Shown piece by piece: positions 1,556 through 16,670 of a DNA stretch of 20,216 nt. The stretch's first letter is position 1. The number at the start of each line of letters is the position of its first letter. The notes under the pieces were generated by a model. It was not told the origin of the DNA and did no database searches. It saw nothing but the letters and a program-made list of their open reading frames with translations. The translations under genes and the position numbers were made by a program. This stretch comes from a virus: IMG/VR virus record IMGVR_UViG_3300044987_002817, positions 1 through 20,216 of that record; one strand, given 5' to 3'.

Positions 1556-1585
1556 CACTATAATAAAATATTTCCCAATGTCAAG

Positions 1586-1592
1586 CTAAATA
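1586..1592 (+). promoter_or_regulatory. Late-promoter-like motif CTAAATA before the DUF1353 gene
   Basis: CTAAATA followed by exactly 5 nt (TTATT) and then ATG at 1598. This is a canonical example of the window-wide motif. There is no Shine-Dalgarno sequence. Confidence 0.65.
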
Positions 1593-1597
1593 TTATT

Positions 1598-2005
1598 ATG
1601 ACCACCGTTAATAAAAACACCTTTCCTGATACGATATATCTGAAAGATTTGGGTATCCATAAAGGAACCCGAAAATTTGAGTTGGGGGAGAATTTTCGCT
1701 GTTTTTATAAGAATCATCTCATCACCGTAAAGAAAGGATTCATCACTGATGGGATCAGTTCCCCGAAATTCGCTTGGCCAATTGTCGGGCCATTTGGAGG
1801 AGCTTTTCCAGCGGCTCTGATTCATGATTGGTGCTTCTCTCCATTCAACGACAAATTCACTTGGAAGGAATCCAACTGGATGTTTTTAGAATTGATGAAA
1901 GAGGCTGGGGTATCTCTTCCCATGAGATGGACGATTTATTCTGCTGTTGTTGCGGGTTCTTATTTTATCTGGAAAAAGAGATTTGAAAAATATGGATTGG
2001 ACTAA
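1598..2005 (+). CDS. DUF1353 family protein
   Basis: This 135-residue protein carries the DUF1353 core: KGFITDGISSPKFAWP (46-61), a glycine-rich turn (GPFGGAFPAAL), and the HD motif in IHDWCF (75-80), followed by a helix WKESNWMFLELMKEAG. DUF1353 is common in tailed phages and has no proven function. The C-terminal stretch IYSAVVAGSYFIW (113-125) is hydrophobic enough to be a membrane segment or a buried helix. It is the first gene of a rightward pair with the endolysin, and its TAA stop forms part of the motif in front of that gene. This suggests, but does not prove, a link to lysis. Confidence 0.85.
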   Translation: MTTVNKNTFPDTIYLKDLGIHKGTRKFELGENFRCFYKNHLITVKKGFITDGISSPKFAWPIVGPFGGAFPAALIHDWCFSPFNDKFTWKESNWMFLELMKEAGVSLPMRWTIYSAVVAGSYFIWKKRFEKYGLD

Positions 2006-2008
2006 GTA
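2002..2008 (+). promoter_or_regulatory. Late-promoter-like motif CTAAGTA before the endolysin gene
   Basis: CTAAGTA, then 5 nt (TTTTT), then ATG at 2014. The motif contains the TAA stop (2003-2005) of the upstream gene. Confidence 0.6.
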
Positions 2009-2013
2009 TTTTT

Positions 2014-2592
2014 ATGAATAGCGATGAAATTAAAAAAATGCAGAAAAAAATCGGAACAACTGTTGATGGATTTTGGGGTCCGAAATCACAAGCCGCATGT
2101 AAAACATATCTACGCTCTCTGATGCCTAAGAACAACCCATGGCCAAAAAGTGATCAAGCATCCTTAACTAAATTTTACGGAAAACCCGGAGACGAATCAA
2201 ATCTCGTAATGATCAACTTTCCATACCCAATGTATTATGGTGGTAAATTGGTTACTAAAACCCGTGTTAATAAGAAATGTGTGGATTCTCTTTTGAGGGT
2301 ATTGAACAACATTAAGGATATAATTCCAAAATATCCAGATATTAAAGATGAAGCTGAAGATTATGGGGGCGTTTTCAATTTCCGCTTGAAGCGTGGAGGT
2401 TCTTCTTATTCTCTACATGCCTATGGTGCTGCCATTGATTTGGATGCCGATGATAATACTTTCCGCGATAGCTGGCCAATGAAATCAGATATGCCATTGG
2501 AGATTATGGAATGCTTTGCCCGTGAGGGGTGGATTGCCGCTGGTGCTTTTTGGGGATACGATGCAATGCACCACGAAGCAGTGAATCGGTAG
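2014..2592 (+). CDS. Endolysin: peptidoglycan-binding domain plus M15 peptidase
   Basis: This 192-residue protein is predicted to cut the peptide part of peptidoglycan at the end of infection. Residues 4-34 (IKKMQKKIG..VDGFWGPKSQAA) match a PG_binding_1 repeat. The C-terminal domain is an M15 (VanY/D-Ala-D-Ala carboxypeptidase-like) zinc peptidase. It has SLHAYGAAIDLD (133-144) giving ligands H135 and D142, a GGVFNFR strand before it, and GYDAMHHE (181-188) with the third ligand at H186. EGWIAAGAFWG matches the usual region before the last motif. No signal peptide is seen, so export would need a holin, and none is identified here. The length is typical for two-domain phage M15 endolysins. Confidence 0.92.
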   Translation: MNSDEIKKMQKKIGTTVDGFWGPKSQAACKTYLRSLMPKNNPWPKSDQASLTKFYGKPGDESNLVMINFPYPMYYGGKLVTKTRVNKKCVDSLLRVLNNIKDIIPKYPDIKDEAEDYGGVFNFRLKRGGSSYSLHAYGAAIDLDADDNTFRDSWPMKSDMPLEIMECFAREGWIAAGAFWGYDAMHHEAVNR

Positions 2593-2616
2593 TTGTTGCA
2601 TATTGTCATAATCATG

Positions 2617-2623
2617 TTAAATA
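2617..2623 (+). promoter_or_regulatory. Late-promoter-like motif TTAAATA before HNH gene 1
   Basis: TTAAATA, 5 nt (TGATT), then ATG at 2629. It decides the start among TTG 2593 and ATGs at 2614, 2623 and 2629. Confidence 0.6.
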
Positions 2624-2628
2624 TGATT

Positions 2629-3297
2629 ATGCAAGATGATATCGAAATACAACGACCAAAATTCCCAGAAGGAGTATCATTATGGTGGAATCTACCACGA
2701 AAAGACATGACTCCCGAACAATTGGAAATTAAAAGAAAATATGATAAGGAATCGAAAACCTTTTATCGAAACAATCCAGAATATAAACAAAAAGACTTAG
2801 AAAGCCAAAGAAGATATACTGAAAAAAATAGAAAAAAGGTATATGAAAGAAATCAAGAGTGGCGGAAAAATAATTGGGATGCTGTATATAAACAGCGAAA
2901 AGAATCTGGTTCTCAGAGGAGAAATATCAATAAATGGTATCACAGCAGAGGAAAACATAATATAAACCATGTTTTATCTGAACGTTTAAGAATAAGAATT
3001 AGAAGAGCTTTACATGGGAAATGTAAGTCGAAATCGACAATAGAATTACTTGGTTGTGATGTAGATTTTTTTAAGCTGCATCTTCAAAATCAATTTCAAG
3101 AAAATATGTCATGGGATAATTATGGTGAGTGGCATATTGATCACATTATTCCTTGTTGTTCTTTTGATTTATCCATCCCTGAAGAACAATTCAAATGTTT
3201 TAATTATGTAAATCTTCGCCCGTTATGGGGTATAGAAAATCTTCTAAAATCTAAAGAAGATAAAAAAATCTCCATAAACAATAAAAATCTTCAATAA
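2629..3297 (+). CDS. HNH homing endonuclease (free-standing)
   Basis: This 222-residue protein ends in an HNH nuclease domain: WHIDHIIP (168-175, with D171 and H172), followed by EEQFKCFNYVNLRPLW and ENLLKSKED, which supply the conserved Asn positions. The N-terminal half is very basic, with repeated units rich in R/K, N and Y (RYTEKNRKKVYERNQEWRKN), probably a DNA-contacting helical region. The start at 2629 is chosen because it lies 5 nt after TTAAATA. The gene is more A-rich than its neighbours, a usual sign of a mobile gene. It ends 1 nt from the stop of the leftward gene at 3299. Neighbouring genes look intact, so no intron is implied. Confidence 0.85.
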   Translation: MQDDIEIQRPKFPEGVSLWWNLPRKDMTPEQLEIKRKYDKESKTFYRNNPEYKQKDLESQRRYTEKNRKKVYERNQEWRKNNWDAVYKQRKESGSQRRNINKWYHSRGKHNINHVLSERLRIRIRRALHGKCKSKSTIELLGCDVDFFKLHLQNQFQENMSWDNYGEWHIDHIIPCCSFDLSIPEEQFKCFNYVNLRPLWGIENLLKSKEDKKISINNKNLQ

Positions 3298-3298
3298 A

Positions 3299-3550
3299 TC
3301 AATTATATCCAAGCTTTTTCAGAAAACGAAAAACGGGATCAACTGCAACTTCCCCAAGATGAGCTAGATATTGGCGATCATCTTTCAGGGACTTCACCAT
3401 AATCTTCCCATTTTTCTCGACGTATTTCACAAATCCTTTTTTCACGGCATCATCCAAAAGCTCATATAACTTGCGGGTCTTACCATGTTTGGCAATTTCC
3501 TCGATAATTTCCCTCACCATCTCTTCCAATATTTCCTGATCCTTGTTCAT
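3299..3550 (-). CDS. Small helical protein of unknown function
   Basis: This 83-residue charged protein starts MNKDQEILEEMVREIIEEI. Its N-terminal half looks like one or two amphipathic helices, followed by a short beta hairpin (GFVKYVEKNGKIMVKSL) and a helical end (VFRFLKKLGYN). This could be a small winged-helix-like shape, but no known family is recognised. The start codon overlaps the stop of the upstream leftward gene by 4 nt (ATGA), so the two are translationally coupled. Confidence 0.7.
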   Translation of the reverse strand: MNKDQEILEEMVREIIEEIAKHGKTRKLYELLDDAVKKGFVKYVEKNGKIMVKSLKDDRQYLAHLGEVAVDPVFRFLKKLGYN

Positions 3551-3852
3551 GCCAATTTTTCCTTTAATTTGCCGAATGCCAATCTCACGGCATTATTTAT
3601 GGGAGAATCCCCCCGATATTCCGATTCCACATCCTGAATAATTTTTAAAATACCTTCAGCTTCCTCCTCCTGTTCCCCATAGACATTGGTAGTTACTGGA
3701 GTGTTGACCATTCCCATTTTAATCTTACCATATGATAATTTACCCCCAGCTTCATCGGGAACCGCTTGCTTGGGAACCCTTTGGGGAGGATTGAAACCCG
3801 ATTGGTATTCCAAAATAATATCGGAATAGATGTTTTTTAATTCTTGATCCAC
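3547..3852 (-). CDS. Unknown acidic protein, predicted GTG start
   Basis: This 101-residue protein begins MDQELKNIYSDI if the GTG at 3852 is used. The frame is open to 3948, but that extension would run antisense into the start of the ClpP-like gene and contains no clear domain. The GTG sits exactly 5 nt after CTAAATA, matching the window-wide start motif, so it is preferred. The middle is Pro/Gly-rich (NPPQRVPKQAVPDEAGG), then an acidic stretch (GEQEEEAEG) and a C-terminal helix. No family is recognised. It is coupled to the 83-aa gene and diverges from the ClpP-like gene. Confidence 0.7.
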   Translation of the reverse strand: MDQELKNIYSDIILEYQSGFNPPQRVPKQAVPDEAGGKLSYGKIKMGMVNTPVTTNVYGEQEEEAEGILKIIQDVESEYRGDSPINNAVRLAFGKLKEKLA

Positions 3853-3857
3853 ATTAG

Positions 3858-3864
3858 TATTTAG
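3858..3864 (-). promoter_or_regulatory. Late-promoter-like motif CTAAATA before the 101-aa gene
   Basis: Reading leftward, CTAAATA, 5 nt (CTAAT), then GTG at 3852. It supports a GTG start. Confidence 0.6.
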
Positions 3865-3886
3865 ATTGCGAACCCCGATTTCTGTG

Positions 3887-3893
3887 TTAAGTA
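3887..3893 (+). promoter_or_regulatory. Late-promoter-like motif TTAAGTA before the ClpP-like gene
   Basis: TTAAGTA followed by 6 nt and ATG at 3900. It forms a divergent pair with the leftward motif at 3858-3864, 22 nt apart. Confidence 0.55.
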
Positions 3894-3899
3894 TTATAC

Positions 3900-4541
3900 A
3901 TGAAGTGGCGTTACCGAAACGAAGAGGAGAAGGAGAACATGAATGCATTCCAAATGCCCCAGATTATCATAAATTCTTCTGATAATGAAGAAACTCAATA
4001 TCCTCAAGGTATTAGAGTCATCAATAATAAAATTTTATTTTATGCTGATGTTAATGAGGGGGCGATGTTAGAATTGAATAGGGTTCTTTTAGAAACAGAT
4101 TTGAAGCTTCAAAGCATGGAACTTGCTTTAGACGGTGCGTATGAATCCACCATCCATCTTCACCTGAATACCTTTGGTGGTAGTATCTTTGCAGCATTCT
4201 CCACCGTGGATACCATCCGCAGACTGAAATCCAAAGTCCATACCCACATTGATGGTAGTGTGGCAAGTGCAGGAACCTTGGTTTCCGCCATTGGTAGCAA
4301 GAGATACATGGGACAACATGCTCATCTTTTGATCCACCAATTGAGTTCCGGTGTGTATGGTAAGTTCTCAGAGATGGAGGATGAGATTTTCAATTGCACC
4401 AATCTGATGAAACTTTTGAAAGATTTCTATAAAAAGAATACCAAGCTTCCCATGAAGAAATTGGATGAACTTTTGAAGCGGGACATCTGGCTCAATGCAG
4501 AGGAATGCCTCCAATACGGAATCGTTGATGAGATCGTTTAA
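3900..4541 (+). CDS. ClpP-like serine protease (candidate prohead protease)
   Basis: This 213-residue protein has the ClpP/crotonase fold. The oxyanion region is LHLNTFGGSIFAAF (87-100), the nucleophile is S123 in GSVASAGTLVSAIG, the catalytic His is H146 in HLLIHQLSSG, and the Asp is probably D195 in KRDIWLNAEECLQYGIVDEI, which aligns with the end of ClpP. The full triad suggests an active peptidase. In many phages ClpP-like enzymes replace the gp21-type prohead protease that trims the scaffold, so that is the most likely role. A host-Clp-like regulatory role is possible. It starts 6 nt after TTAAGTA. A second in-frame ATG at residue 14 is an alternative. Confidence 0.88.
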   Translation: MKWRYRNEEEKENMNAFQMPQIIINSSDNEETQYPQGIRVINNKILFYADVNEGAMLELNRVLLETDLKLQSMELALDGAYESTIHLHLNTFGGSIFAAFSTVDTIRRLKSKVHTHIDGSVASAGTLVSAIGSKRYMGQHAHLLIHQLSSGVYGKFSEMEDEIFNCTNLMKLLKDFYKKNTKLPMKKLDELLKRDIWLNAEECLQYGIVDEIV

Positions 4542-4543
4542 GG

Positions 4544-4599
4544 CTTGATTTTTGGAAAAGCTATGCCAGTATTTAGCGTGGCGAACAACCAAAATCAAG
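4544..4599 (+). repeat. Inverted repeat in the nrdB leader
   Basis: CTTGATTTTTGG (4544-4555) and CCAAAATCAAG (4589-4599) can pair over 11 bp with one bulged T, leaving a 33-nt loop. It lies just after the ClpP-like stop and before nrdB. It could end the protease transcript or fold in the nrdB leader. No T-run follows, so a simple terminator is unlikely. Confidence 0.35.
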
Positions 4600-4631
4600 A
4601 AAGAGAAACAACGAAAGTGGGGAATAAATAA
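4563..4631 (+). CDS. Possible 22-codon leader ORF before nrdB
   Basis: The gap between the ClpP-like gene and nrdB holds an ATG at 4563 followed by 22 codons and a TAA at 4629-4631 (MPVFSVANNQNQERETTKV...). It has a GGA about 10 nt upstream. The peptide matches nothing known. It may be chance, or a leader peptide overlapping the inverted repeat. Confidence 0.2.
   Translation: MPVFSVANNQNQERETTKVGNK
4624..4630 (+). promoter_or_regulatory. ATAAATA motif before nrdB
   Basis: ATAAATA lies 10 nt before the nrdB ATG (4641), with AGG in the spacer as a weak ribosome site. By T4 late geometry transcription would start near 4636. The wider spacing than most genes here may mean a different expression class. 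Confidence 0.4.
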
Positions 4632-4640
4632 TCAGGCGAT

Positions 4641-5615
4641 ATGAGCATTTTTGACGAACAGATAAGCAGGAAACCAAACAAATACCCGTGGACAGAAAAA
4701 TTCATTGAAGCAATGCACAATGGTTTTTGGACTGACAAGGAATTCTCTTTCAAAAGCGATCTTCATCAATTCAAGACACAACTCACGGATCAGGAACGGG
4801 AAATCATTGTGAGAACCTTGTCTGCCATTGGACAGATTGAGGTTGCGGTAAAGACATTTTGGGCAAAGCTTGGGGACAACCTCCCCCACCCATCCTTGTC
4901 TGATCTAGGATTTGTGATGGCAAATGTTGAGGTGATCCACAATAATGCATACGAACGTCTCCTGTCCGTATTGGATATGGAGGATGTTTTTGAAGAGAAC
5001 CTTAAATTGGAATGGATTCAGGGAAGAGTGAAATATCTCAAAAAATATACCCATCGTTTCTATAAGGATTCCAAGAAACAATATCTTTATGCCCTGATTC
5101 TTTTCACATTGTTTGTGGAAAACGTATCCTTGTTTTCTCAATTCTATGTGATCAATTGGTTCGGACGGAACAAGAGTGTCCTGAAAGACACTGATCAACA
5201 GGTTCGATACACCCGCAATGAAGAAATGATTCATGCGTTGGTAGGTGTTAAGATTATCAATACCATTAGGGAGGAACTACCGGAGCTTTTTGATGAGGAA
5301 TTGGAAACCAAGATTTTACAGGAAGCAGAACAAGCTTTCATATCGGAATCGAAGATCATCGACTGGATGGTGAATGGTATTGATGAAAAGGGACTGACTG
5401 CTCCAATTCTCAAGGAATTCATCAAAAACAGGATCAACGAATCTCTGGTTCAGATTGGATTTAAAAAAGTTTTTGATATTGATGAAGTATTATTGGATGA
5501 AACATCATGGTTTGAAGAAGAATTGATGGGTTCCAATATGACAGATTTTTTCCATTCAAAAAGTGTGGAATATTCTAAAAAGGGGCAGTGTTATGAGGAA
5601 GATGAACTATTTTAA
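4641..5615 (+). CDS. nrdB: Ribonucleotide reductase class I small subunit NrdB
   Basis: This 324-residue radical-generating subunit works with NrdA to reduce ribonucleotides to deoxyribonucleotides. The di-metal ligands are visible: probable E67 (GQIEVAV), E97 and H100 (VEVIH), E160 (FVEN), and E195 and H198 (EEMIH). A Tyr four residues after H100 (Y104) matches the radical tyrosine position of E. coli R2 (Y122). A Glu rather than Asp as first ligand is inferred by alignment from memory. The C-terminus (GQCYEEDELF) is the expected acidic tail that docks on NrdA. No intron or intein interrupts it. nrdA follows 3 nt after the stop, so the order is nrdB-nrdA. Confidence 0.95.
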   Translation: MSIFDEQISRKPNKYPWTEKFIEAMHNGFWTDKEFSFKSDLHQFKTQLTDQEREIIVRTLSAIGQIEVAVKTFWAKLGDNLPHPSLSDLGFVMANVEVIHNNAYERLLSVLDMEDVFEENLKLEWIQGRVKYLKKYTHRFYKDSKKQYLYALILFTLFVENVSLFSQFYVINWFGRNKSVLKDTDQQVRYTRNEEMIHALVGVKIINTIREELPELFDEELETKILQEAEQAFISESKIIDWMVNGIDEKGLTAPILKEFIKNRINESLVQIGFKKVFDIDEVLLDETSWFEEELMGSNMTDFFHSKSVEYSKKGQCYEEDELF

Positions 5616-5618
5616 TAT

Positions 5619-7271
5619 ATGACAAGAGAAAAATACTATTGGTTGAACGAAGACTCCGTTAAATTTTTGGAGAAGGGATATTTGAAAGAGGGGCAGACTC
5701 CTTTGGAGAGAATTAAAGAGATTGCTGATGCCGCCGAAAAAATCTTGGGTGTTGATGGATTTTCCGATAAATTCGAGGATTATATGTCCAAGGGTTATTA
5801 TAGTTTGGCAACTCCCGTTTGGATGAATTTTGGGAATAAACGTGGATTGGGTATTTCATGTTTCAATTCACACGTTTCTGATAGTATTGAAGATTTCCTC
5901 TTCAAACAAGCAGAAGTGGGGATGATGACGAAAGTTGGTGGGGGATGTTCTGGTTATTTTGGGGATATTCGTCCTCGCGGTTCTAAAATCACTGGTGGTG
6001 GAATTGCTGAAGGTGCAGCGCGTTGTATGGAATTATTTGATACTGTAACAAGTATCGTTAGTCAAGGAAGCGCACGTAGAGGACACTTTGCTGCATATTT
6101 ACCAATTGATCATGATGACTTTGATGAATTTATCAAAATTAGATCGGAAGGTAATACCATCCAAGAAATGTCAATTGGTGTATGTGTTTCTGATGAATGG
6201 ATGCAATCAATGGTTGAAGGTGATAAGGAAAAAAGACGTAGATGGTCTGCTGTTATCAAAAAACGTTCTGAAACTGGTTATCCGTATGTATTTTTCACTG
6301 ATAATGCAAACAATCAGAAACCACAAGTTTATAAAGATAAAGATTATAAAATCAATAGTTCCAACATGTGTACTGAAATTTTTCTCCCTTCAACCAGAGA
6401 AGAATCGTTCGTGTGCTGTTTATCGTCGTTGAACCTGCTTTGGTGGGATGAAATCAAAGATACTGATGCTGTCGAAACGCTGATTATGTTCCTTGACGCT
6501 GTGATGAGCGAATTCATCGAAAAAACCGCAGATATTAGATTGATGGAAGCTGCTCATAGATTTGCCAAGAATCATCGGGCATTAGGTATGGGAGTTCTGG
6601 GTTATCACAATTACCTCCAATCCAAGATGATCGCTTGGGAAAGTATGGATGCACATTTCGAGAATATTGAAATCTTTTCCAAGATTCGTGAACGTGCTGA
6701 TAAGGCAACGGAAGAATTGGCTCAAATGTTCGGGGAACCGGAAGTCCTAAAAGGATATGGAAGACGGAATACTACAACGTTGGCTGTGGCTCCAACAACT
6801 TCAAGCAGTTTTATTTTGGGGCAAGTCTCTCCATCCATCGAACCTCTCAATTCCAACTACTTTGTAAAGAATTTGGCAAAAGGTAAATTCACATATAAAA
6901 ATCCACATCTCATTGAATTATTGAAATCTAAAGATAAAAATACCAAGGATGTTTGGAAAGATATTTTGGCGCATGGGGGGAGTGTTCAACATCTAGATTT
7001 CTTAACCCAAGAAGAGAAAGATGTGTTTAAGACGTTTGCAGAAATTTCCCAACGAGAAATCGTTGTTCATGCTGCTCAACGGGGTCAATATCTAGATCAA
7101 GGACAATCGCTAAACCTAATGATTCCAGCGGGAACCAAACCAAAGGAAATTAATCAGCTTATGATCTTCGCTTGGGAACAGGGGATTAAATCTTTATATT
7201 ACAGTCGCAGTTCAAATCCTTCCCAAGATTTGGCGAGATCGATCATGAATTGTAAGTCCTGTGAAGGTTAG
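5619..7271 (+). CDS. nrdA: Ribonucleotide reductase class I large subunit NrdA, short form
   Basis: This is the catalytic subunit, which reduces NDPs in the cytoplasm. Active-site parts are complete: C81 (GISCFNS), the NxCxE motif with N249, C251 and E253, the second redox Cys at C266 (CCLSSLNL), the tyrosine relay Y527-Y528 (KSLYYSRS), and a C-terminal CxxC (C545, C548) for re-reduction. At 550 residues it is about 200 shorter than E. coli NrdA. It begins directly at the R1 helical domain, so the N-terminal ATP-cone that senses dATP is missing. The product would be expected to escape dATP shutdown. Its TAG stop overlaps the TAA of the convergent spike gene (TTAG at 7268-7271). Confidence 0.95.
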   Translation: MTREKYYWLNEDSVKFLEKGYLKEGQTPLERIKEIADAAEKILGVDGFSDKFEDYMSKGYYSLATPVWMNFGNKRGLGISCFNSHVSDSIEDFLFKQAEVGMMTKVGGGCSGYFGDIRPRGSKITGGGIAEGAARCMELFDTVTSIVSQGSARRGHFAAYLPIDHDDFDEFIKIRSEGNTIQEMSIGVCVSDEWMQSMVEGDKEKRRRWSAVIKKRSETGYPYVFFTDNANNQKPQVYKDKDYKINSSNMCTEIFLPSTREESFVCCLSSLNLLWWDEIKDTDAVETLIMFLDAVMSEFIEKTADIRLMEAAHRFAKNHRALGMGVLGYHNYLQSKMIAWESMDAHFENIEIFSKIRERADKATEELAQMFGEPEVLKGYGRRNTTTLAVAPTTSSSFILGQVSPSIEPLNSNYFVKNLAKGKFTYKNPHLIELLKSKDKNTKDVWKDILAHGGSVQHLDFLTQEEKDVFKTFAEISQREIVVHAAQRGQYLDQGQSLNLMIPAGTKPKEINQLMIFAWEQGIKSLYYSRSSNPSQDLARSIMNCKSCEG

Positions 7272-8860
7272 CCCTTTTGCGGTTTCTTCTTCTCATGCAT
7301 CTGAGGATACGCTTGGGCAATCGAATTGTGGACATTGATACCGTTCTTGTGGGCATCCTTCCGAACGTCCTCATTGGCTTCCATAAGTTTCAACGGTAGG
7401 TTGTTGAAGTGGTGGCTATGGGGATACGTCACAATCAGGTCATCGGCGGCTCTGGCATACACGGGATAATACTCTCCTGCAATTTCGCAGTCCCCAATAT
7501 ACAAGCTGCGATCAGTGGTTGTGGCGAACCTGCCGGAAACCAGCGTATTTTCCGTCTGCTGCACCTCCAGCGGGGCAGTAACGCCTTGGAGGTATGTCTG
7601 ACCCTCCACGGCAAGACCACCCCCCACAATTAAGTTATTTTTAACTCCAAGGGATGATTCGATATAAACCTGCCTGTTCGTGCGGAGAACGATGGTTTTC
7701 ATGGATTGCAATTCAATTGCGTTCTCCGATCCAATGTGGACACCATGGGAAGCATTAATATTTATTTTTTTGAATCCGGCTTTTAAAGTGGCTCCCCCCA
7801 ATTCGGTGGCTCCCGTGGTCTTCAGGGAAATGCCACCGGAACCGACGATACGGTTGTAGGAATTGCCCACAATCTTAGTGTCCTGTCCACAAGGGAAATT
7901 GGAAGAATTATCTATTTCTTCCACATGGGGAATGTAATCATGGTTTTTATATACACCCGTATCACCAACCAACATTTCAAATGGTTGACTTCTCCCTTTT
8001 TCATCAATGCGAACCGATGGGTAATCATTGAAAATCGCTCCCACCGTTTCAATTTTGTTTCTCTTGACGATGATATGTTCATCCCCCCCATCACCCATCT
8101 TCTCTTCAATGGGAGTGAGTTCTTCCTGAATTGCCAATACAGCATCAGCAATGTTTTGGGCATCCTCTTCCGGCTCCCATTCCCCGTTCTCCGTAGCTGC
8201 TGATTTATTTGCTCCAAATTCCAAAACACCGGGAGCTTTCGATCCTTGCTCTCCCGCACTCTTGGAAATATCCTCCTCTTTTATATCTTTTTCTTCCGCT
8301 GGTTTGGTCTTGCCACGGTCAGGAACGGGGGAATAATCAGTAACTTCATCTGTAGATGATAATCTTCGGGGTAATTTTATATACCCCCCGAACTTATTCT
8401 CGACAACATAGACCTTGGAACCGATCACCGGATTGTCCGCACGTTCTCCTTCCAAATCAGTATCCACACCATTCGGGCCGGATACTCCTCCCCGTTTGAT
8501 TTTGAATTTGGAATTTACCAATGCCACCGAATTAAAAGTGTCTTTCCATTGCTGGTAAGCATCAAATTCCTCGTCTTTCAGGAACCCCTTGAAATCATAT
8601 CTGGTATTTCCCACACGATTGGTCTGAACGCCTTTTACGAATTTATTATCATCATTCAGAACAGTCTCAAAATTATCATTGATGACATGGGTTTGCTTGT
8701 TGTTAGTGGCAAGTTCTGAATTGACCAGATTGTTCATCAGAACATTGCTTCCCGATCTTTGGGAAAGCTGAATGCTCTCCTGATCGGTTGTGTTTGTAAT
8801 CACCAAAGAGCCACCCCTTTGGTTTAGTATCGTCCTATTTCTGTAAATTTTATCGGCCAT
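7268..8860 (-). CDS. Baseplate central spike / tail-tip structural protein
   Basis: This 530-residue protein starts at ATG 8860 (MADKIYRN), 2 nt after the stop of the OB-fold hub gene, so the two are coupled. The N-terminal 120 residues are Asn/Gln/Thr-rich. The middle is a charged, disordered linker (around 180-250). Residues about 340-430 show repeated short beta strands split by glycines (GGISLKTTG, GGATLKAG, KININASHGVHIGS, GGLAVEGQTYL), typical of trimeric beta-helix spikes such as the T4 gp5 C-terminus. A HSHH motif near residue 481 could bind a metal ion. No lysozyme domain is seen. The family is inferred from context and repeat style. An adhesin-like tail protein is the alternative. 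Confidence 0.65.
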   Translation of the reverse strand: MADKIYRNRTILNQRGGSLVITNTTDQESIQLSQRSGSNVLMNNLVNSELATNNKQTHVINDNFETVLNDDNKFVKGVQTNRVGNTRYDFKGFLKDEEFDAYQQWKDTFNSVALVNSKFKIKRGGVSGPNGVDTDLEGERADNPVIGSKVYVVENKFGGYIKLPRRLSSTDEVTDYSPVPDRGKTKPAEEKDIKEEDISKSAGEQGSKAPGVLEFGANKSAATENGEWEPEEDAQNIADAVLAIQEELTPIEEKMGDGGDEHIIVKRNKIETVGAIFNDYPSVRIDEKGRSQPFEMLVGDTGVYKNHDYIPHVEEIDNSSNFPCGQDTKIVGNSYNRIVGSGGISLKTTGATELGGATLKAGFKKININASHGVHIGSENAIELQSMKTIVLRTNRQVYIESSLGVKNNLIVGGGLAVEGQTYLQGVTAPLEVQQTENTLVSGRFATTTDRSLYIGDCEIAGEYYPVYARAADDLIVTYPHSHHFNNLPLKLMEANEDVRKDAHKNGINVHNSIAQAYPQMHEKKKPQKG

Positions 8861-8862
8861 AA

Positions 8863-9588
8863 TCAATTCTCAAAATCGTTTGGATAATAAGGGGAAATTT
8901 TATTATCATTGTCGGTTCTATTTATCAGTGTCAGTCCACGGAAATCCTGCGACACTCCAAAGTAAATGGGAAAGTTTAAATCTCCCAGATAATGGAACAC
9001 CCAAACCTTGGAACCCACTTCGGGAATACCGAACATTCCCTTGGATTTGTTTGTGAAATTATTCGATTTATATCCAAAAGCATAGGGATTGCATTTGACA
9101 GCGAAAACATCAAGAGGATTGGCAAACGCATCGGATACCATGGTATCCATGTTTTCATATAAAAATGAAGGGGAGAACGATCCCCCGCTTAAAGTTGGGA
9201 CTTCAGTATTATTATTTTCGTAAGTCTCCGAATAGTTACTGTCCGTTATAACAGCCAAACCATCCCCATCCTGTTTGAAGTATCGTCCATTACCGGATTC
9301 TCCCATCAGAGGATAACACGGTTCCGCCCATGGAATGTGTTTGGAAATCTCTTCGTAAATCTTGATATCAACCCAAGTGTCTTCGGGGTTGTTGAGTCCG
9401 GGTCTTTGAATATTCATTTCCTCATATTTCTCAAACCATTCCTCAAAAGGTTGGTTGGATAATTCGGGAATGAATATCTTAACCCGATTCATTTTCAGGG
9501 GATCGTTGTTCTTGACCACAATTCCACGGTAGAACGATTCGTCGTTCCTTTTCGCCTCATTGCCCGCCCCTGATCCACGAATAAACAC
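8863..9588 (-). CDS. Baseplate hub protein with gp5-type OB-fold
   Basis: This 241-residue protein has an N-terminal OB-fold like T4 gp5 and P2 gpV: FYRGIVVKNNDPLKMNRVKIFIPEL (19-43). The closing strands are GIPEVGSKVWVFHYLGDLNFPIYFGV (187-212). This domain sits at the centre of the baseplate, linking the tube to the spike. The start is a GTG at 9588, exactly 5 nt after TTAAGTA. No ATG exists upstream in frame before the motif. The lysozyme and beta-helix parts of T4 gp5 are absent, and the helix-like part is carried by the next gene, so this looks like a split hub-spike system. Confidence 0.75.
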   Translation of the reverse strand: MFIRGSGAGNEAKRNDESFYRGIVVKNNDPLKMNRVKIFIPELSNQPFEEWFEKYEEMNIQRPGLNNPEDTWVDIKIYEEISKHIPWAEPCYPLMGESGNGRYFKQDGDGLAVITDSNYSETYENNNTEVPTLSGGSFSPSFLYENMDTMVSDAFANPLDVFAVKCNPYAFGYKSNNFTNKSKGMFGIPEVGSKVWVFHYLGDLNFPIYFGVSQDFRGLTLINRTDNDNKISPYYPNDFEN

Positions 9589-9593
9589 AACAA

Positions 9594-9600
9594 TACTTAA
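9594..9600 (-). promoter_or_regulatory. Late-promoter-like motif TTAAGTA before the OB-fold hub gene
   Basis: Reading leftward, TTAAGTA, 5 nt (TTGTT), then GTG at 9588, in the 21-nt gap after the neck-protein gene. Confidence 0.6.
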
Positions 9601-9609
9601 TAAGGTATC

Positions 9610-10749
9610 TCACATCACGAGCATCAAGGGAGGGTCCGTTGAGAATCCACCTTCAATTAAGAATTGTTCCAATTCTTTTTTCGCTTCCAATCCTTCCGAA
9701 AGAATGCTGGAACCATCAATGGAACCACCTCCGGGTAAAGTAACACCGGATATCTTAGTGAGTATCCGTCCCCACATGATCTTAGACATGGCGGTGGCGT
9801 ATTCCAAAATCCACTTCTCCTTGATCAAATCTCTTAAAGGTTTTTCCACGTAGCAAGTGAGCAAGCCAAAAAATTGAGTGTTTTTCGGTTGAGGTATTAA
9901 ACGGAGATATTGTGTTCTTGCATCAAAATAGATGTCCCGACGAGTAGCAAACATTTTTTCGCGGGTATCAATCCAATCCTTGACGGTGTGCCAAGATAGA
10001 ATATCAAATCCATAGTTACCCAGCGAATAAGCGTGATAACTTTGTTGAGCCATGGTTTGTTCCACGGAAAACAATGTGTTTACACCTGTGGAAGAACCTT
10101 CCTCAAAAGAAATAACATCAACTACTTTGCGGTAATCCATGACATCATAATCAAACATATTATTGAATGTGTTCACATCATCCTGTTGTTCACACTGTAT
10201 CGTGAACGGTTTTTGATAGGATTGTTGGAACAGCACACTCAAACCAGCATTGAATCCCACTAGAAGATCGTAAGTAGTTTGGTCAATAATTTGCATGGAA
10301 GTAATGCCATCGGAAGGAACCACTCCGCTTAATGCTGAAGAAGCTGTGAAATATGCGCTGGGAATTGTGGAAAGGGAAACATATAAAGGAGTTGGGAGAG
10401 TCACTTCATAATCCGGTTGTGGTCCGGTTCTCTTATCATTGAGCTTTTCCGATGGTGTGTATCCCGAATTGGCAACTGTGAAAAGATGATCCAATCGTAA
10501 GCCTTTGTTACCCTCATACAATCGGCTGTCAAAAATAAGATATTCTTTAGTGTAACCACTATATACTGTATAGAAGTCAACCGCCATTGATATGGCTTCG
10601 TGTAACTGATCGTAATGTAACTCCACATTAATCATGGGATGTCCCAAGGTTCTCAGAATCCTCTCTCCCAAACGCTGGTAACACTCAATCTTGGAATTGA
10701 GATTGGTGGACATGAAAGCGGAAATTGGTTCAACTTGGCATAAGCTCAT
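9610..10749 (-). CDS. gp13-like neck / head-completion protein
   Basis: This 379-residue virion protein has two stretches resembling T4 gp13. The first is an N-terminal RTLGHPMINVELHYDQLHEA, as in gp13 LGAPIINVEL. The second is a C-terminal helix-loop with WILEYATAMSKIMWG followed by TLPGGGSIDGSSIL and an acidic helix, as in gp13 YATAL..LPGGVTIDG. gp13 helps form the neck that joins the filled head to the tail. The match is from memory of the family and the middle is not conserved. The longer frame starts at 10806, but ATG 10749 (MSLCQVEP) sits 5 nt after TTAAATA and is preferred; the extension would also overlap the divergent gene at 10778. Confidence 0.65.
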   Translation of the reverse strand: MSLCQVEPISAFMSTNLNSKIECYQRLGERILRTLGHPMINVELHYDQLHEAISMAVDFYTVYSGYTKEYLIFDSRLYEGNKGLRLDHLFTVANSGYTPSEKLNDKRTGPQPDYEVTLPTPLYVSLSTIPSAYFTASSALSGVVPSDGITSMQIIDQTTYDLLVGFNAGLSVLFQQSYQKPFTIQCEQQDDVNTFNNMFDYDVMDYRKVVDVISFEEGSSTGVNTLFSVEQTMAQQSYHAYSLGNYGFDILSWHTVKDWIDTREKMFATRRDIYFDARTQYLRLIPQPKNTQFFGLLTCYVEKPLRDLIKEKWILEYATAMSKIMWGRILTKISGVTLPGGGSIDGSSILSEGLEAKKELEQFLIEGGFSTDPPLMLVM

Positions 10750-10754
10750 AATCT

Positions 10755-10761
10755 TATTTAA
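10755..10761 (-). promoter_or_regulatory. Late-promoter-like motif TTAAATA before the neck gene
   Basis: Reading leftward, TTAAATA, 5 nt (AGATT), then ATG at 10749. It is back to back with the rightward motif at 10766, only 4 bp away. Confidence 0.65.
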
Positions 10762-10765
10762 TCTG

Positions 10766-10772
10766 TTAAGTA
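10766..10772 (+). promoter_or_regulatory. Late-promoter-like motif TTAAGTA before the NNG-repeat gene
   Basis: TTAAGTA, 5 nt (TTATT), then ATG at 10778. It is the rightward half of the divergent pair. Confidence 0.65.
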
Positions 10773-10777
10773 TTATT

Positions 10778-11074
10778 ATGTCCTTTGAATCAAACAACGG
10801 TTCCATTTATTACGAATTATCCTGCGGCATCCCCACCGTTTCAGGTTGGAATGCTAATACCAACAACGGTTCCGCGTATTATTACCTATCTGCCAACGAT
10901 TTCATCCTCTGGGGGCAGGACACCACTTACATCCACCCATCGTCCAATAATGGGAGTCAATTCTACTTCTATGACTGTGATAGACCCACTGATTCGGGTT
11001 GGAATGCTGAAGAAAACAATGGAACAAAATATTATTATAATTCCGCGTTCAACTGTGTGAGCTTTTGTGATTAA
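10778..11074 (+). CDS. NNG(S/T)xYY-repeat protein, unknown function
   Basis: This 98-residue protein is built almost wholly of four imperfect repeats beginning NNGS or NNGT and followed by aromatic pairs: NNGSIYY (6-12), NNGSAYYY (29-36), NNGSQFYF (57-64) and NNGTKYYY (80-87), spaced 23, 28 and 23 residues apart. Two repeats are preceded by SGWNA. The GW..NG..YY rhythm recalls choline/cell-wall-binding type 1 repeats, though it is not a clear match. There are Cys at 16, 67, 93 and 97. There is no signal peptide or membrane segment. The longer frame from 10691 is rejected because the ATG at 10778 follows TTAAGTA by 5 nt. It is a rightward gene among leftward virion genes. Confidence 0.7.
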   Translation: MSFESNNGSIYYELSCGIPTVSGWNANTNNGSAYYYLSANDFILWGQDTTYIHPSSNNGSQFYFYDCDRPTDSGWNAEENNGTKYYYNSAFNCVSFCD

Positions 11075-11079
11075 CTTTC

Positions 11080-11086
11080 ATAAATA
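11080..11086 (+). promoter_or_regulatory. Late-promoter-like motif ATAAATA before the PAS gene
   Basis: ATAAATA, 5 nt (ATATT), then ATG at 11092. This one is nearly identical to the T4 late box TATAAATA, with CA in place of T before it. Confidence 0.65.
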
Positions 11087-11091
11087 ATATT

Positions 11092-11766
11092 ATGGATTTT
11101 TACGATTTTGTTCAACAACACGCCAATTTTATAAAAATTATTCTAGGGGCGATTGGTGCCATTATATTGACTTGGAAACAACTCAGGACTTTTATTGTCG
11201 AAAAATATAAGGAACGTCAGGAATATATTAAATCTCGGAATTCCATACCAGAATCTTTAAAAAATATTCAAGGAACTGTGTCAAATATTGATGATCGTTT
11301 AAAAAATGTTGAATATGAAATATCCCCGAATGGTGGGGGTTCCATGCGGGATTCTGTGAAAATAATCAAAGCTGAAATAGAGGCTATGTTTTGGCTCAAT
11401 CCCAAACCATCGTTTAGAGTTACCTCCAAAGGTCTTAATATTATGGTGAATGAAGCATATTGTAATCTGTGTGCAACATCATCAGAAGAATTGCTTAGAT
11501 TAAATTGGAAAAATTTCGTGGAAGACGAACATCAACTTGATGATTACATGCGTAGATGGGAGGATTCAACCGATGTATTTTCACAGTTTTCTGGTAAATT
11601 AAAATTTAAAAACTCCAAAGGCGAATATATGGGCGAGTGGATTGTGAAAGTCCGTCCTTTGGGGGCAATCGATTCGGGAAACGATTTCCTGTGGCATGGG
11701 ACAATTTATCCTTTTGACCAGAAATCGAAAGAATATGCCAAGACTTATGGCATTCCTTTAAATTAA
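11092..11766 (+). CDS. Membrane-anchored coiled-coil PAS-domain protein
   Basis: This 224-residue protein has one N-terminal membrane helix (about 12-27, NFIKIILGAIGAIILT) followed by a basic segment. Then come a coiled coil (about 38-76) with an NGGGSMRDSV turn and a PAS-like domain (about 97-207). PAS features are the NEAYCNLCATSSEELLRLNW helix pair, the VEDEH..DDYMRRWED segment, the strand FSGKLKFKNSKGEYMGEWIVKVRPLG and a final HGTIYP strand. PAS domains bind small ligands or partners and act as sensors. No kinase, cyclase or other output domain follows, so any signal must go through the coiled coil or membrane part. The function in the phage is unknown; a lysis-timing or host-state sensor is conceivable. 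Confidence 0.75.
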   Translation: MDFYDFVQQHANFIKIILGAIGAIILTWKQLRTFIVEKYKERQEYIKSRNSIPESLKNIQGTVSNIDDRLKNVEYEISPNGGGSMRDSVKIIKAEIEAMFWLNPKPSFRVTSKGLNIMVNEAYCNLCATSSEELLRLNWKNFVEDEHQLDDYMRRWEDSTDVFSQFSGKLKFKNSKGEYMGEWIVKVRPLGAIDSGNDFLWHGTIYPFDQKSKEYAKTYGIPLN

Positions 11767-11767
11767 A

Positions 11768-12187
11768 CTACTGTATATCCGACACATCCAATACTTTCAA
11801 AGATTGTTTCATCAAAATAGCTGCAATAATTCGATGATACCCATCCAAAGCCGTGTTATTATTAATGACGATTGGGTTATCGTGTAATTCATTTAAATTT
11901 TTCTTGTAATGATTTACGATTTGCTTCTGATCCCTATCAGCAAAATCTTTATATGCTTGAAATACCGTGGTATCATCTTTATATGTCGTCAATTTCAACA
12001 ATTGATCTGGTGATAGTGTTTTGATCGGAATTTGGATATCCCCTATTTCGGGGTCAACAGCACTATAAAGTGCCTCGTTTTCAGGAACATCATATTCAAT
12101 ATCACCATAAATATCGTTCAGAGACATGGTATGGTTTTCCATACTTTCATATAATAGTGCTAGATTTTTGAAGTCGTGGGAAGTCAT
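11768..12187 (-). CDS. Small protein with ParB-like nuclease fold motif
   Basis: This 139-residue protein has a C-terminal stretch NPIVINNNTALDGYHRIIAAIL (104-125) that fits the ParB/sulfiredoxin pattern of a short strand pair, then DGxHRxxAA. Earlier IQIPIKTLSPDQLLKL (51-66) suits the preceding strand-helix. ParB-like folds include CTPases, nucleases and kinases, so the activity is open. The N-terminus MTSHDFKNLALLYESM resembles the short N-terminal tags common on phage head-packaged proteins, but that link is speculative. It starts 5 nt after TTAAATA. It lies leftward of the portal, separated from it by the rightward HNH gene. Confidence 0.6.
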   Translation of the reverse strand: MTSHDFKNLALLYESMENHTMSLNDIYGDIEYDVPENEALYSAVDPEIGDIQIPIKTLSPDQLLKLTTYKDDTTVFQAYKDFADRDQKQIVNHYKKNLNELHDNPIVINNNTALDGYHRIIAAILMKQSLKVLDVSDIQ

Positions 12188-12192
12188 GATAA

Positions 12193-12199
12193 TATTTAA
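12193..12199 (-). promoter_or_regulatory. Late-promoter-like motif TTAAATA before the ParB-like gene
   Basis: Reading leftward, TTAAATA, 5 nt (TTATC), then ATG at 12187. Confidence 0.65.
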
Positions 12200-12248
12200 T
12201 TTGATGGTGATTTATCACAATTTTTTCTTTCCAGTTTGATCCGTTTAG

Positions 12249-12255
12249 TTAAATA
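12249..12255 (+). promoter_or_regulatory. Late-promoter-like motif TTAAATA before HNH gene 2
   Basis: TTAAATA, 5 nt (TTAAT), then ATG at 12261. The mobile endonuclease gene thus carries its own phage-type promoter. Confidence 0.65.
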
Positions 12256-12260
12256 TTAAT

Positions 12261-13394
12261 ATGAATACGAAGGAATGCACTAGATGTAAAAGTGAGTTAT
12301 CATTAAATTTATTTACAAAATCTTCCAAAAGTCCTGATGGTTTGCAATATGAATGTATTGAATGTGGGAAAGAACGAAAACGTGAATGGAGATTGAAAAA
12401 TAAAGATCGTCATGATGCTTATATGGTAAAATACAGAGAAGAAAACCGTGAGCTTTGTATAGAGAGAGGTAAAATATATAGAGAAAAGAATTTGGAAAAG
12501 GAATTACTCCGTTCTAAAAATTATAAATTGAAGAATCCGGTGATTAGACAATTGGGTTCTTATAAGACGAATGCAATTAAAAACGATGCTTATCACGAAC
12601 AACATGATCCGAAGATAGAAGCTGTTTTAATAGAAATGAAAATTAGATTGCAAAAATGTTTAGGTGTTAAATTTATATTACATAAAATAATCCCAATGAA
12701 TAAAGGAGGTTATCATCATCACCAAAATATTCAAGTTATACCAAAATCATTCGAGGGAATAGCCAATAAATTAATTAAGCACGATAATCCCATATTAAAA
12801 TATTGGGGGGACACTCCAGAATTTTTATGGGACAAGGCATTACAAATAGAAAATGTAAAATTAGAAATGAGTGGTAATAAAAAATGTTACTCATGCGATC
12901 AAATTTCCCCAATTGATAGCTTTTGTATATTACATAAAAAATTTAAAAATAGATCGTCTTATTGTGAAGCTTGCCACAACAAAAAATTTTCTGAATATTA
13001 TAAAAATAATAAAGAACAATTAAATATTAAAAAGAATAATTGGGATAAAAATAATTGGGATAAGGTATTATTGAGAAATAGTAAAAGACGAGCGTTAAAA
13101 AAGAACGCAACACATCCTAATCACGATCAAAACATTGAAAAAACATATGTTGATATGCGAATCAGGCTGGAAGATTGTCTAGGTATCAAATATAATGTTG
13201 ATCATATCTTACCTCTAACCAAAGGAGGTTATCATCACCATGGAAATCTCCAAACAATACCAGAGTCTCTTAACGACAGTAAGAGAGCTAATTTAAAATT
13301 TAGACACCCATCTCTGGTTCATTGGACGGAGCTTCCGGCGTTTCTGCTTGATCGAGTGGAGCTTCGACATTTGGAGCTTCTGAATCAGTTATAG
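12261..13394 (+). CDS. HNH homing endonuclease with internal duplication
   Basis: This 377-residue protein is made of two homologous halves. Each has a Cys4 zinc finger (C6, C9, C32, C35; and C209, C212, C235, C238), a basic linker, then an HNH-like domain (about 126-195 and 299-366). The second half has the DH of the nuclease (D314, H315) and N329 and N338. The first half aligns well (KGGYHHH in both), but DH is replaced by HK (141-142) and the last Asn is lost, so it is probably inactive. The last 32 codons lie antisense to the portal gene. HPSLVHWTELPAFLLDRV (349-366) still aligns with residues 176-193, so the overlap is truly coding. The gene is A+T-rich and faces the leftward portal. Confidence 0.85.
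   Translation: MNTKECTRCKSELSLNLFTKSSKSPDGLQYECIECGKERKREWRLKNKDRHDAYMVKYREENRELCIERGKIYREKNLEKELLRSKNYKLKNPVIRQLGSYKTNAIKNDAYHEQHDPKIEAVLIEMKIRLQKCLGVKFILHKIIPMNKGGYHHHQNIQVIPKSFEGIANKLIKHDNPILKYWGDTPEFLWDKALQIENVKLEMSGNKKCYSCDQISPIDSFCILHKKFKNRSSYCEACHNKKFSEYYKNNKEQLNIKKNNWDKNNWDKVLLRNSKRRALKKNATHPNHDQNIEKTYVDMRIRLEDCLGIKYNVDHILPLTKGGYHHHGNLQTIPESLNDSKRANLKFRHPSLVHWTELPAFLLDRVELRHLELLNQL
12702..13237 (+). repeat. Pair of 17-bp direct repeats inside HNH gene 2
   Basis: AAAGGAGGTTATCATCA occurs at 12702-12718 and again at 13221-13237. Both encode the start of KGGYHHH. They mark the internal duplication at DNA level. The rest of the two halves has diverged. Confidence 0.8.
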
Positions 13395-15123
13395 CTGCGC
13401 CAGAGCCTCCAAAATCTGGAGGCATCCCACCACCTCCACTTGATCCTCCCATGGCTCCCATATCACCACCAGCTTCGCCTCCAGCTTGTTGAGCTAATAA
13501 CTCTTTGTAGTTGGGTCCGAGTGTTTTTATTTGTTCGATTTCAAACATGTGTTCCGCTTCCACCTTCTTGAAATGTAGGTTGGCAAGGATATCGGAATCT
13601 CTCCAATCCAGATATTTCTTCATGGCATAAATCGTGGATACCATTTCATTACCCGTAATGTTATTGAAAGTCTCAATCTTAAGATTGAGCTTCTGGCTCT
13701 CCCGCATATCATAGAAATTGGTGGGAACATTGAATTCCACGCGGATATTGTCATCGAACAAATCCCAATCATCGAACATGTCCTTGAACTTGAGGTGTGT
13801 GATAAACGCTCTCTTGATACCTTGGGCAAAGCGTTGTTGTTGACGAATGATCATCTTGGCAAACTTCAGTTCTTCCCGAAGCATCTCCGTTCCATCATTA
13901 TAACCCGTTTCATTATTCAAACGAGAAGTTGGAGTCTTGAGAGAACGATATAATTTCTTGATGAACCAATCAAGAGGTTCCATATTACCATCCGACATTT
14001 GACCCCCAAATGTTTCAACTGTAGTTGCCTCTTGTCCTTGTCTCTTGGCAAACCAGAATGAATCAAGCGTGGATTGAGGTGCGTATTTCTTGACAATATC
14101 TCCCTGATCCATGTCAAACGTCTTGGTTGACCAGTATTGGCTCTGTAGCTTGCGTAGGTAGGCTTCTGCTGCGGGGACGGGCAATCTTCCCACATCCACG
14201 TTGAAGAGGAAGCGGAGGGGCGCATGAACCATTCTGTGGATCACCACGGAATCCTCAATCATGGAAAGCTGTCTGTAAGCTCTACGGCAATTCTCAATGA
14301 AAGGAATGATAAAATCCTTGGTTTCATTATATTGCCCACTGTTCACATAGAGGACTTGGTTTTGTTCAAAGGGAATGTATTCATAGCGTTCTACCTTTTT
14401 ATTATCCACCGAAGAGAAGATTGGCTTCTTGTAAATGAACGCTTTCACCAACATCGTCTGAATGTTGTCATATACAGGATCAAATTGTTCAGCAGGGAGG
14501 TTTTTGATGGCAACTACCCCTTGTTTGATATAATCATCTTTTAGAATCAATTCAAAGAACAGTTCGCCTTCAATAAGAAATTGGCGGAAATAATTCCAAC
14601 CATTGTCTTCCAGTTCCATCATGGCAACGAAACGGGAGAATTCCTTCTCAATCTCCTCTTTCTTTTCCGATTCCAGATCAGTATTACGGATTTCTAGAGT
14701 TACAATCTCTCCGTTCTCATCCACATTGATCGTCTCATCGCAAATCTCATCCATGGCATCCGCCACTTCAGAGTAAGCGGCAATCATGCGGTAGTCCCGC
14801 AAACGCCCCGGTTTTTCCTCCGAAGCTTGGGAATACATCAAATCCGTAAAGGACTTGTCTTGGTAAATTGCGGAAAATGCAGTGTTGTTCCAGTCGTTAT
14901 TGAGAGCTACGGAATTTCTAGCAATCGCTTCCGGTCTGCGTAAACCAATCTTTTGGAAATATTTATATTTTGTATTCTTCGCTTCGTCAGGAGTCTTCTC
15001 AATGAAATTCCCGCGATTCTTCAAATAGGATTGCATGTTCCTATCAAATGTGGAACCTTTACCATCCGTTCCTTGGTATTGTTTGTTTGAAGATGGTGTT
15101 GTTGAACTGCCGATACCCGCCAT
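13300..15123 (-). CDS. gp20: Portal vertex protein (T4 gp20-like)
   Basis: This 607-residue protein forms the dodecameric DNA gate at one capsid vertex and nucleates head assembly. Gp20-type features are YRMIAAYSEVADAMDEICDE (111-130), NYFRQFLIEGELFFELIL (177-194) and the conserved core MIEDSVVIHRMVHAPLRFLFNVDVGRLP (288-315). Next come GQEATTVETFGGQMSDGNMEPLDWFIKKLY and SRLNNETGYNDGTEM. The C-terminal 60 residues are low complexity, Gly/Met then Glu/Ala/Pro, and the last 30 overlap HNH gene 2 on the other strand. The start ATG lies 6 nt after TTAAATA. No intron or intein is present. The length is slightly above T4 gp20 because of the tail. Confidence 0.95.
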   Translation of the reverse strand: MAGIGSSTTPSSNKQYQGTDGKGSTFDRNMQSYLKNRGNFIEKTPDEAKNTKYKYFQKIGLRRPEAIARNSVALNNDWNNTAFSAIYQDKSFTDLMYSQASEEKPGRLRDYRMIAAYSEVADAMDEICDETINVDENGEIVTLEIRNTDLESEKKEEIEKEFSRFVAMMELEDNGWNYFRQFLIEGELFFELILKDDYIKQGVVAIKNLPAEQFDPVYDNIQTMLVKAFIYKKPIFSSVDNKKVERYEYIPFEQNQVLYVNSGQYNETKDFIIPFIENCRRAYRQLSMIEDSVVIHRMVHAPLRFLFNVDVGRLPVPAAEAYLRKLQSQYWSTKTFDMDQGDIVKKYAPQSTLDSFWFAKRQGQEATTVETFGGQMSDGNMEPLDWFIKKLYRSLKTPTSRLNNETGYNDGTEMLREELKFAKMIIRQQQRFAQGIKRAFITHLKFKDMFDDWDLFDDNIRVEFNVPTNFYDMRESQKLNLKIETFNNITGNEMVSTIYAMKKYLDWRDSDILANLHFKKVEAEHMFEIEQIKTLGPNYKELLAQQAGGEAGGDMGAMGGSSGGGGMPPDFGGSGAAITDSEAPNVEAPLDQAETPEAPSNEPEMGV

Positions 15124-15129
15124 ACTTAT

Positions 15130-15136
15130 TATTTAA
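15130..15136 (-). promoter_or_regulatory. Late-promoter-like motif TTAAATA before the portal gene
   Basis: Reading leftward, TTAAATA then 6 nt (ATAAGT) and ATG at 15123. It lies in the 40-nt gap after the 102-aa gene. Confidence 0.6.
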
Positions 15137-15163
15137 GCGGAATCTTCAATTATTCAATGAAAT

Positions 15164-15472
15164 CTATTTAGGTATTTCAAAAGTGGAACCATCTGGTAAT
15201 TGAACTGCTGTCGTGGACGATGGTAACATACCAGTCTCAATTGCATCATACAAAGCATTGGAAAAATATTGTTGTTGATACTCACTCATTGGAAATTTGA
15301 AAGTTACTGGTTCTCCACCGCTAGAATATCCCATTAACATTTCCAATTCACCGTCTGGTGTTCTGGTCGAAAGATTTCCAAATTCATCTTGCTCCAATTT
15401 AACAATACCTGATTGTTCTGAATACATCTCTGTTATAAGATTTGAAATTGCAAATTGATCTTTCGTAGTCAT
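15164..15472 (-). CDS. Small acidic protein of unknown function
   Basis: This 102-residue protein starts MTTKDQFAISNLITEMYSEQ. The frame is open to 15517, but the ATG at 15472 follows CTAAATA by 5 nt, and the extension would overlap the gp15-like gene. The sequence is acidic, with beta strands ending in two short turns (PDGELEML and LPDGSTFEI) and a middle helix (SEYQQQYFSNALYDAI). The N-terminus may be a helix like those of capsid-packaged proteins. No known domain is seen. It lies between gp15-like and portal genes, which suggests a head or connector-linked role. Confidence 0.65.
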   Translation of the reverse strand: MTTKDQFAISNLITEMYSEQSGIVKLEQDEFGNLSTRTPDGELEMLMGYSSGGEPVTFKFPMSEYQQQYFSNALYDAIETGMLPSSTTAVQLPDGSTFEIPK

Positions 15473-15477
15473 GATAT

Positions 15478-15484
15478 TATTTAG
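15478..15484 (-). promoter_or_regulatory. Late-promoter-like motif CTAAATA before the 102-aa gene
   Basis: Reading leftward, CTAAATA, 5 nt (ATATC), then ATG at 15472. It lies in the 26-nt gap after the gp15-like gene. Confidence 0.65.
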
Positions 15485-16597: not shown

Positions 16598-16604
16598 TAC
16601 TTAA
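16598..16604 (-). promoter_or_regulatory. Motif TTAAGTA upstream of the gp15-like gene
   Basis: TTAAGTA reading leftward, with the ATG 19 nt downstream (16578). By T4 late geometry the transcript would carry a leader of about 14 nt. It is an exception to the usual 5-nt spacing. Confidence 0.45.
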
Positions 16605-16663: not shown

Positions 16664-16670
16664 CTAAGTA
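16664..16670 (+). promoter_or_regulatory. Motif CTAAGTA before the ribbon-helix-helix gene
   Basis: CTAAGTA followed by 7 nt (ATATAGT) and ATG at 16678. It lies in the 99-nt divergent gap from the gp15-like gene, which is otherwise A+T-rich and holds no convincing ORF. Confidence 0.5.

Follow-up and report, generated by a model that had tools for sequence, protein, structure and literature searches.

Start-codon-locked late boxes and probable leaderless transcription in a lineage of uncultivated T4-like phages

Late boxes before genes of the window

The DNA analysed here, referred to as the window, is a complete IMG/VR viral record of 20,216 bases (IMGVR_UViG_3300044987_002817), and its gene content is that of a T4-superfamily phage: gp20 portal, gp13-type adaptor, tail sheath stabiliser, ribonucleotide reductase, ThyX and ClpP-type protease. 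The element under study is the heptamer YTAARTA followed, after exactly 5 nucleotides (nt; this spacing is written N5, and other spacings likewise), by a start codon. A preliminary description of the sequence had listed eleven such sites and read them as T4-type late promoters giving leaderless mRNA; all eleven are present.

On the plus strand, CTAAATA (1586..1592) precedes the ATG at 1598 of a gene of the DUF1353 / tail assembly chaperone family, and CTAAGTA (2002..2008) the ATG at 2014 of an M15 peptidase endolysin; in the latter box, the TAA at 2003-2005 doubles as the stop codon of the preceding gene. TTAAATA (2617..2623) stands before the ATG at 2629 of a gene without family match (2629-3297), TTAAGTA (10766..10772) before ATG 10778, ATAAATA (11080..11086) before ATG 11092, and TTAAATA (12249..12255) before the ATG at 12261 of an endonuclease VII / HNH type gene. 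On the minus strand, the boxes are CTAAATA (3858..3864, GTG 3852), TTAAGTA (9594..9600, GTG 9588, in a gene with a weak gp5-type baseplate hub match), TTAAATA (10755..10761, ATG 10749, gp13-type head-tail adaptor, divergent from the box at 10766..10772), TTAAATA (12193..12199, ATG 12187) and CTAAATA (15478..15484, ATG 15472). In agreement with the preliminary description, no Shine-Dalgarno sequence could be recognised by eye in the 40 nt upstream of any of these starts.

The displaced sites that had also been listed were confirmed. The spacing is N6 at the gp20 portal gene (TTAAATA, 15130..15136, minus strand, ATG 15123), at the ClpP / head maturation protease type gene (TTAAGTA, 3887..3893, plus strand, ATG 3900) and at ATG 563, where the box (TTAAGTA, 570..576, minus strand) lies within the upstream gene; it is N7 at ATG 16678 (CTAAGTA, 16664..16670, plus strand), N8 at 370 and N10 at 4641. 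In addition, the tail sheath stabiliser gene (ATG 16578, minus strand) has a box, TTAAGTA, at N19 (16598..16604) and represents a leadered exception.

The heptamer itself is only slightly in excess in the window, with 20 occurrences against 13.7 +/- 3.4 expected. Half of these 20 sites have ATG or GTG at exactly 5 nt (binomial P 1.3e-10). Of all combinations of a 6-mer and a gap before ATG, TAAATA-N5 ranks first. The signal in the window is the spacing, rather than the abundance of the 7-mer.

Conservation of the spacing and resemblance to T4 late promoters

Relatives were collected by portal identity (59-100%), contigs of 82-207 kb being among these. One of them, the 177-kb G003, contains the window region and has a portal identity of 100%. 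A genome-wide motif search had been proposed as a check in the preliminary description, and in the relatives the excess at N5 is strong. In offset histograms, where every TAARTA and every ATG was counted without gene calls, six relatives gave 58, 54, 54, 52, 43 and 21 ATG at N5, against about 5 per other offset. Over nine contigs, the counts at N5 were 422 for ATG (49.6 expected), 45 for GTG (23.4 expected) and 40 for TTG (50.7 expected). Furthermore, 94.5% of the N5 ATGs open a reading frame (ORF) of at least 50 amino acids, compared with 20.5% at control offsets.

The peak reaches relatives with 58-78% major capsid identity (293 at N5 against about 40 per offset, in 0.99 Mb), and several relatives in that same range are without it. 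At loci with 25-31% portal identity it is almost gone (46 against about 25 per offset), and in HTVC008M the 5 cases at N5 among 94 boxes are not distinct from other offsets. T4, Syn9, KVP40 and C48C1 show no N5 peak, and the spacing was rejected as a feature of all T4-like phages.

The late promoter of T4 is an 8-bp TATA box located about one helical turn upstream of +1, with its first base at -13; the box spans -13 to -6, is followed by an AT-rich segment, and has no -35 element (PMC2988020). With this numbering, the N5 box occupies the position of the T4 late box, and for this reason +1 would fall on the start codon, as the preliminary description had placed it. In the logos of the late class, the TAARTA core is invariant, there is no conservation upstream, and the bases after the box are AT-rich. 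The clade thus shares with the T4 late promoters (TATAAATA, served by gp55-gp33-gp45) a TAARTA core at -10, an AT-rich downstream stretch and the lack of a conserved -35. However, its consensus deviates from that of T4 at -12 (Y for A) and at -8 (R), and -13 is free. The clearest difference is the distance to the gene: 5 nt from box to ATG in the clade, whereas TATAAATA sits 24-28 nt before ATG in T4.

As in T4, the late boxes of the clade serve virion and packaging genes on both strands. In G003, a box at N5-N19 was found before 11 of 13 recognisable virion or packaging genes and before none of 10 genes of replication, recombination or transcription (Fisher 6.7e-5). Among N5 starts, the families are tail sheath, terminase, head closure, protease, endolysin and homing endonucleases; the non-late promoter classes hold, among others, DNA polymerase, ThyX, clamp, helicase, MazG and RNA ligase.

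Homologues of gp55 and gp33, whose presence had been suggested as a further check, gave a divided result. A homologue of gp55, the late sigma factor, was found (phrog_234, E about 1e-25) in nine of ten relatives; no match to gp33 was obtained in ten contigs. In G003 the gp55 homologue lies outside the 20-kb window; a homologue of 149 amino acids is encoded at L085:1911-2360, and the clade gp55 has 39% identity to that of T4 over the aligned part. A sliding clamp homologue is also present in six of eight relatives.

Further promoter classes in the same register

The start-codon-locked geometry extends beyond the late genes to other promoter classes, which the preliminary description had not included. 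In four relatives, ATG is preceded 79, 42, 34 and 64 times by the heptamer AAAACTA (part of TTAAAAACTAGAATACAAT) ending at a distance of exactly 15 nt, and three of them have a minor peak at 18 nt. This AAAAACTAG...TACAAT class combines the AAAACTA core with a -10-like hexamer, is locked to the start, and is found mostly before short genes that follow one another in the same orientation. Its place is constant across lineages but the box itself is not, being TAAACACTAA in G011 and TTAATTAAAACCGAACTA in G012. A lineage-specific box of this kind (AAAAACTAG, TAAACACTAA or TTAATTAAAACCGAAC), beside a -10-like hexamer, was observed before short-gene arrays in G001-G004 (L099-L109, L062-L090), G011 and G012; possibly, it is the site of a MotA-like activator that changes quickly between lineages.

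The starts with neither a late nor an AAAACTA box show a TANNNT peak at -12 (40 against about 10) and a TTGA[CT][AT] peak at -34. In the commonest layout of this sigma70-like class the spacer is 16 nt long and 6 nt lie between the -10 and the start, in counts for which the motif had a part in the choice of starts and spacers. In the window, the class is represented by the thyX promoter (1557..1584, minus strand), with TTGACA at 1584-1579, a 16-nt spacer, TATAGT at 1562-1557, and 7 nt before ATG 1549; this arrangement has an orthologous counterpart in a relative. The thyX start is probably ATG 1549 and not GTG 1558, since the -10 of the TTGACA promoter overlaps the latter. Promoters of the TAnnTTTG type known from Bacteroidota were also considered and rejected, as they gave no start-locked peak in G011-G013 and G015.

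In all three classes a -10-like hexamer stands at -12 to -7 from the start codon. This common register is explained by the geometry of RNA polymerase and not by a ribosome signal. Leaderless mRNA is, on the evidence of these sequences, likely the default in the clade. A similar situation has been described in bacteria, where TA-like (TANNNT) signals located some 10-12 bp upstream of the start mark leaderless genes in Actinobacteria and Deinococcus-Thermus (PMC3160421, Zheng et al. 2011). Those genes share with the clade the -10 hexamer at -12 to -7, the lack of a Shine-Dalgarno sequence and the AUG/GUG starts; unlike them, the clade has a phage-specific late sigma factor and two other classes sharing the register within one virus genome.

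We consider it quite probable that YTAARTA-N5-start is a T4-type late promoter which gives leaderless late transcripts. In the proposed mechanism, host RNA polymerase carrying the gp55-like late sigma factor of the phage would recognise the element, the box filling the -10 position and the 5 nt after it forming the AT-rich stretch that melts. The +1 would coincide with the initial base of the start codon. Most virion, packaging and lysis genes would accordingly have late transcripts that are leaderless, or that carry 1-3 nt of leader at N6-N8. Translation would proceed by recognition of a 5'-terminal AUG or GUG, with no Shine-Dalgarno sequence, and the remaining genes of these phages would be served by sigma70-like and AAAAACTAG-type promoters placed in that register too.

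The preliminary description had offered another explanation: that the motif is a translation signal for a host with weak Shine-Dalgarno use. In this reading it would be an A/U-rich, Kozak-like initiation context on leadered mRNAs, transcription starting elsewhere. Shine-Dalgarno-like sequences are indeed rare throughout these phages, judged on mechanical ORF calls in which the motif had a part in the choice of starts; the offset histograms are independent of these calls. Moreover, the box supplies an A at -6, often with an A at -3, a context that resembles the one described for Flavobacterium, and the remaining starts are A-rich too. Yet the replication genes, read by the same ribosomes, carry the box in none of ten cases. 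There is no TTG excess at N5, though TTG accounts for 27 of 178 ATG/GTG/TTG starts at genes overlapping by 4 nt (an approximate figure, from mechanical ORFs), and this fits initiation at a purine better than a translation signal. The sigma70 -35/-10 pairs with their 16-nt spacer stand in the same register, which a ribosome would have no reason to prefer, and the box matches the T4 late promoter in phages that have a gp55 homologue. The restriction to virion genes, the TTG counts and the sigma70-type elements in register make a translation signal improbable.

Several observations weigh against leaderless late transcription directed by gp55. Some genes have their box at N6-N19. The gp55 of the clade ends in EGDEYDDx, a feature conserved across the clade, without the T4 tail SPSLDFLYEAND; in T4, the C-terminal tail of gp55 is the clamp epitope (PMC2988020). 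The gp33 profile (phrog_254, a weak one of 84 positions) found no match at E up to 1 in the ten contigs, which are incomplete, but it found none in G018 either, which has a strong gp55. The more distant relative G013 has gp55, yet its peak is blurred over N2-N6.

Finally, no box lies near the major capsid gene, whose start is preceded instead by a conserved structured leader. Its covarying hairpin, of the form TGA-stem-TGA, was found in 42 of 76 loci, against 0.5% of shuffles (L083:12655-14118, minus strand, upstream of the major capsid gene, G003:34118; L243-L321). The stem variants include GGAA/TTCC, GGTC/GACC, GGTG/CACC, GGCAT/GTGCC and AGTACT/AGTACT, among others, and a second form of the leader ends in GAGGTCGA. 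A search of 140 kb, which took in the window and the major capsid leaders, gave no Rfam family at the gathering threshold, and the leader is a candidate new structured RNA.

Some of these points would suit a late promoter at which initiation is shifted upstream or downstream from the canonical +1, giving short leaders of about 3-15 nt, or whose mRNA is processed. With gp55 truncated relative to T4 and gp33 not found, start-site selection could differ, and the box spacing is relaxed in G013 as well as in RM378. This Rhodothermus phage (L358/L357/L322), a cultured relative, resembles the clade in having a short TTATTTAA box near many starts, located at N6 (TATTTAA, 12 cases) or at N8-N17, with A-rich sequence at -1 to -6; it differs in its looser spacing and in its sigma factor, which belongs to another family, phrog_1740. 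Against a shift stand the strict N5 in nine contigs, its limitation to ATG and GTG, and the sigma70-type promoters in identical register. The +1 geometry of sigma70-type promoters is well established. A shifted start is, in our opinion, decidedly improbable.

The last explanation considered was chance, or a side effect of the A+T-rich junctions at which one packed gene stops and the next starts (TAA...ATG). Among 80 late-class genes that are closely packed, 41 have a box whose TAA serves as the stop codon of the preceding gene (gap 8), and 22 more have a gap of 4. But other offsets are flat, T4, Syn9, KVP40 and C48C1 have no N5 peak, and divergent genes, with no stop to share, carry the box in 28% of cases against 12% for gaps of at most 15 (pooled, on the ORF calls mentioned above), so that this hardly credible explanation was rejected.

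Lineage and biological meaning

The phages of the clade are probably Far-T4 phages, as inferred from a gp23 identity of 32-34% to cyanophages and from the many aquatic uncultivated relatives. Like the clade, the Far-T4 phages (PMC4360716) and RM378 are T4-superfamily phages of aquatic metagenomes with divergent gp23 and gp20, and with ribonucleotide reductase, PhoH and helicases. The Far-T4 paper, unlike the present analysis, does not mention promoters or gp55, and gives core transcription-regulation genes as undetected (PMC4360716). Flavobacteriales are, in part, among the hosts proposed for Far-T4-like phages (PMC13037479, PMC7198788), but the Bacteroidota-type promoters gave no start-locked peak, as described above. 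A scan of genome contigs for the portal, made with a view to the host, gave no match, and a scan with the TnpB-family transposase gave matches in scattered phyla with identity up to about 52%, from which no host is claimed. The gene concerned, of the TnpB/OrfB_IS605 type, is located in G003 (L086:1488-2564, minus strand), and its nearest bacterial matches are spread over phyla.

Another observation in G003 is that the terminase large subunit (G003:123721-127224, L088) is split into parts that lie in two reading frames and enclose another ORF with a late box, which suggests an intron or an inserted homing endonuclease gene.

In the textbook case of T4, late mRNAs carry leaders, and no report of leaderless T4-type late transcripts was found in the literature searched. 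In a widespread uncultivated sister lineage, the promoters appear to have moved by about 20 bp and to have become one unit with the start codon, which often shares the stop codon of the preceding gene too. Tentatively, and with less confidence than for the late class, all temporal classes (host-sigma, AAAAACTAG-type and gp55 late, all ending at the start codon) may be leaderless, and late transcription with a gp55 lacking the clamp epitope, and without gp33, may be uncoupled from replication, unlike in T4; the clade offers a simple test of whether gp55 works without gp33 and the clamp. If the proposed geometry is true, most genes would have their promoter strength tied to the choice of start codon, and the DNA sequence by itself would suffice to call gene starts in these viruses. 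The host would also have to be efficient at translating leaderless mRNA, and the search for it would thereby be narrowed.

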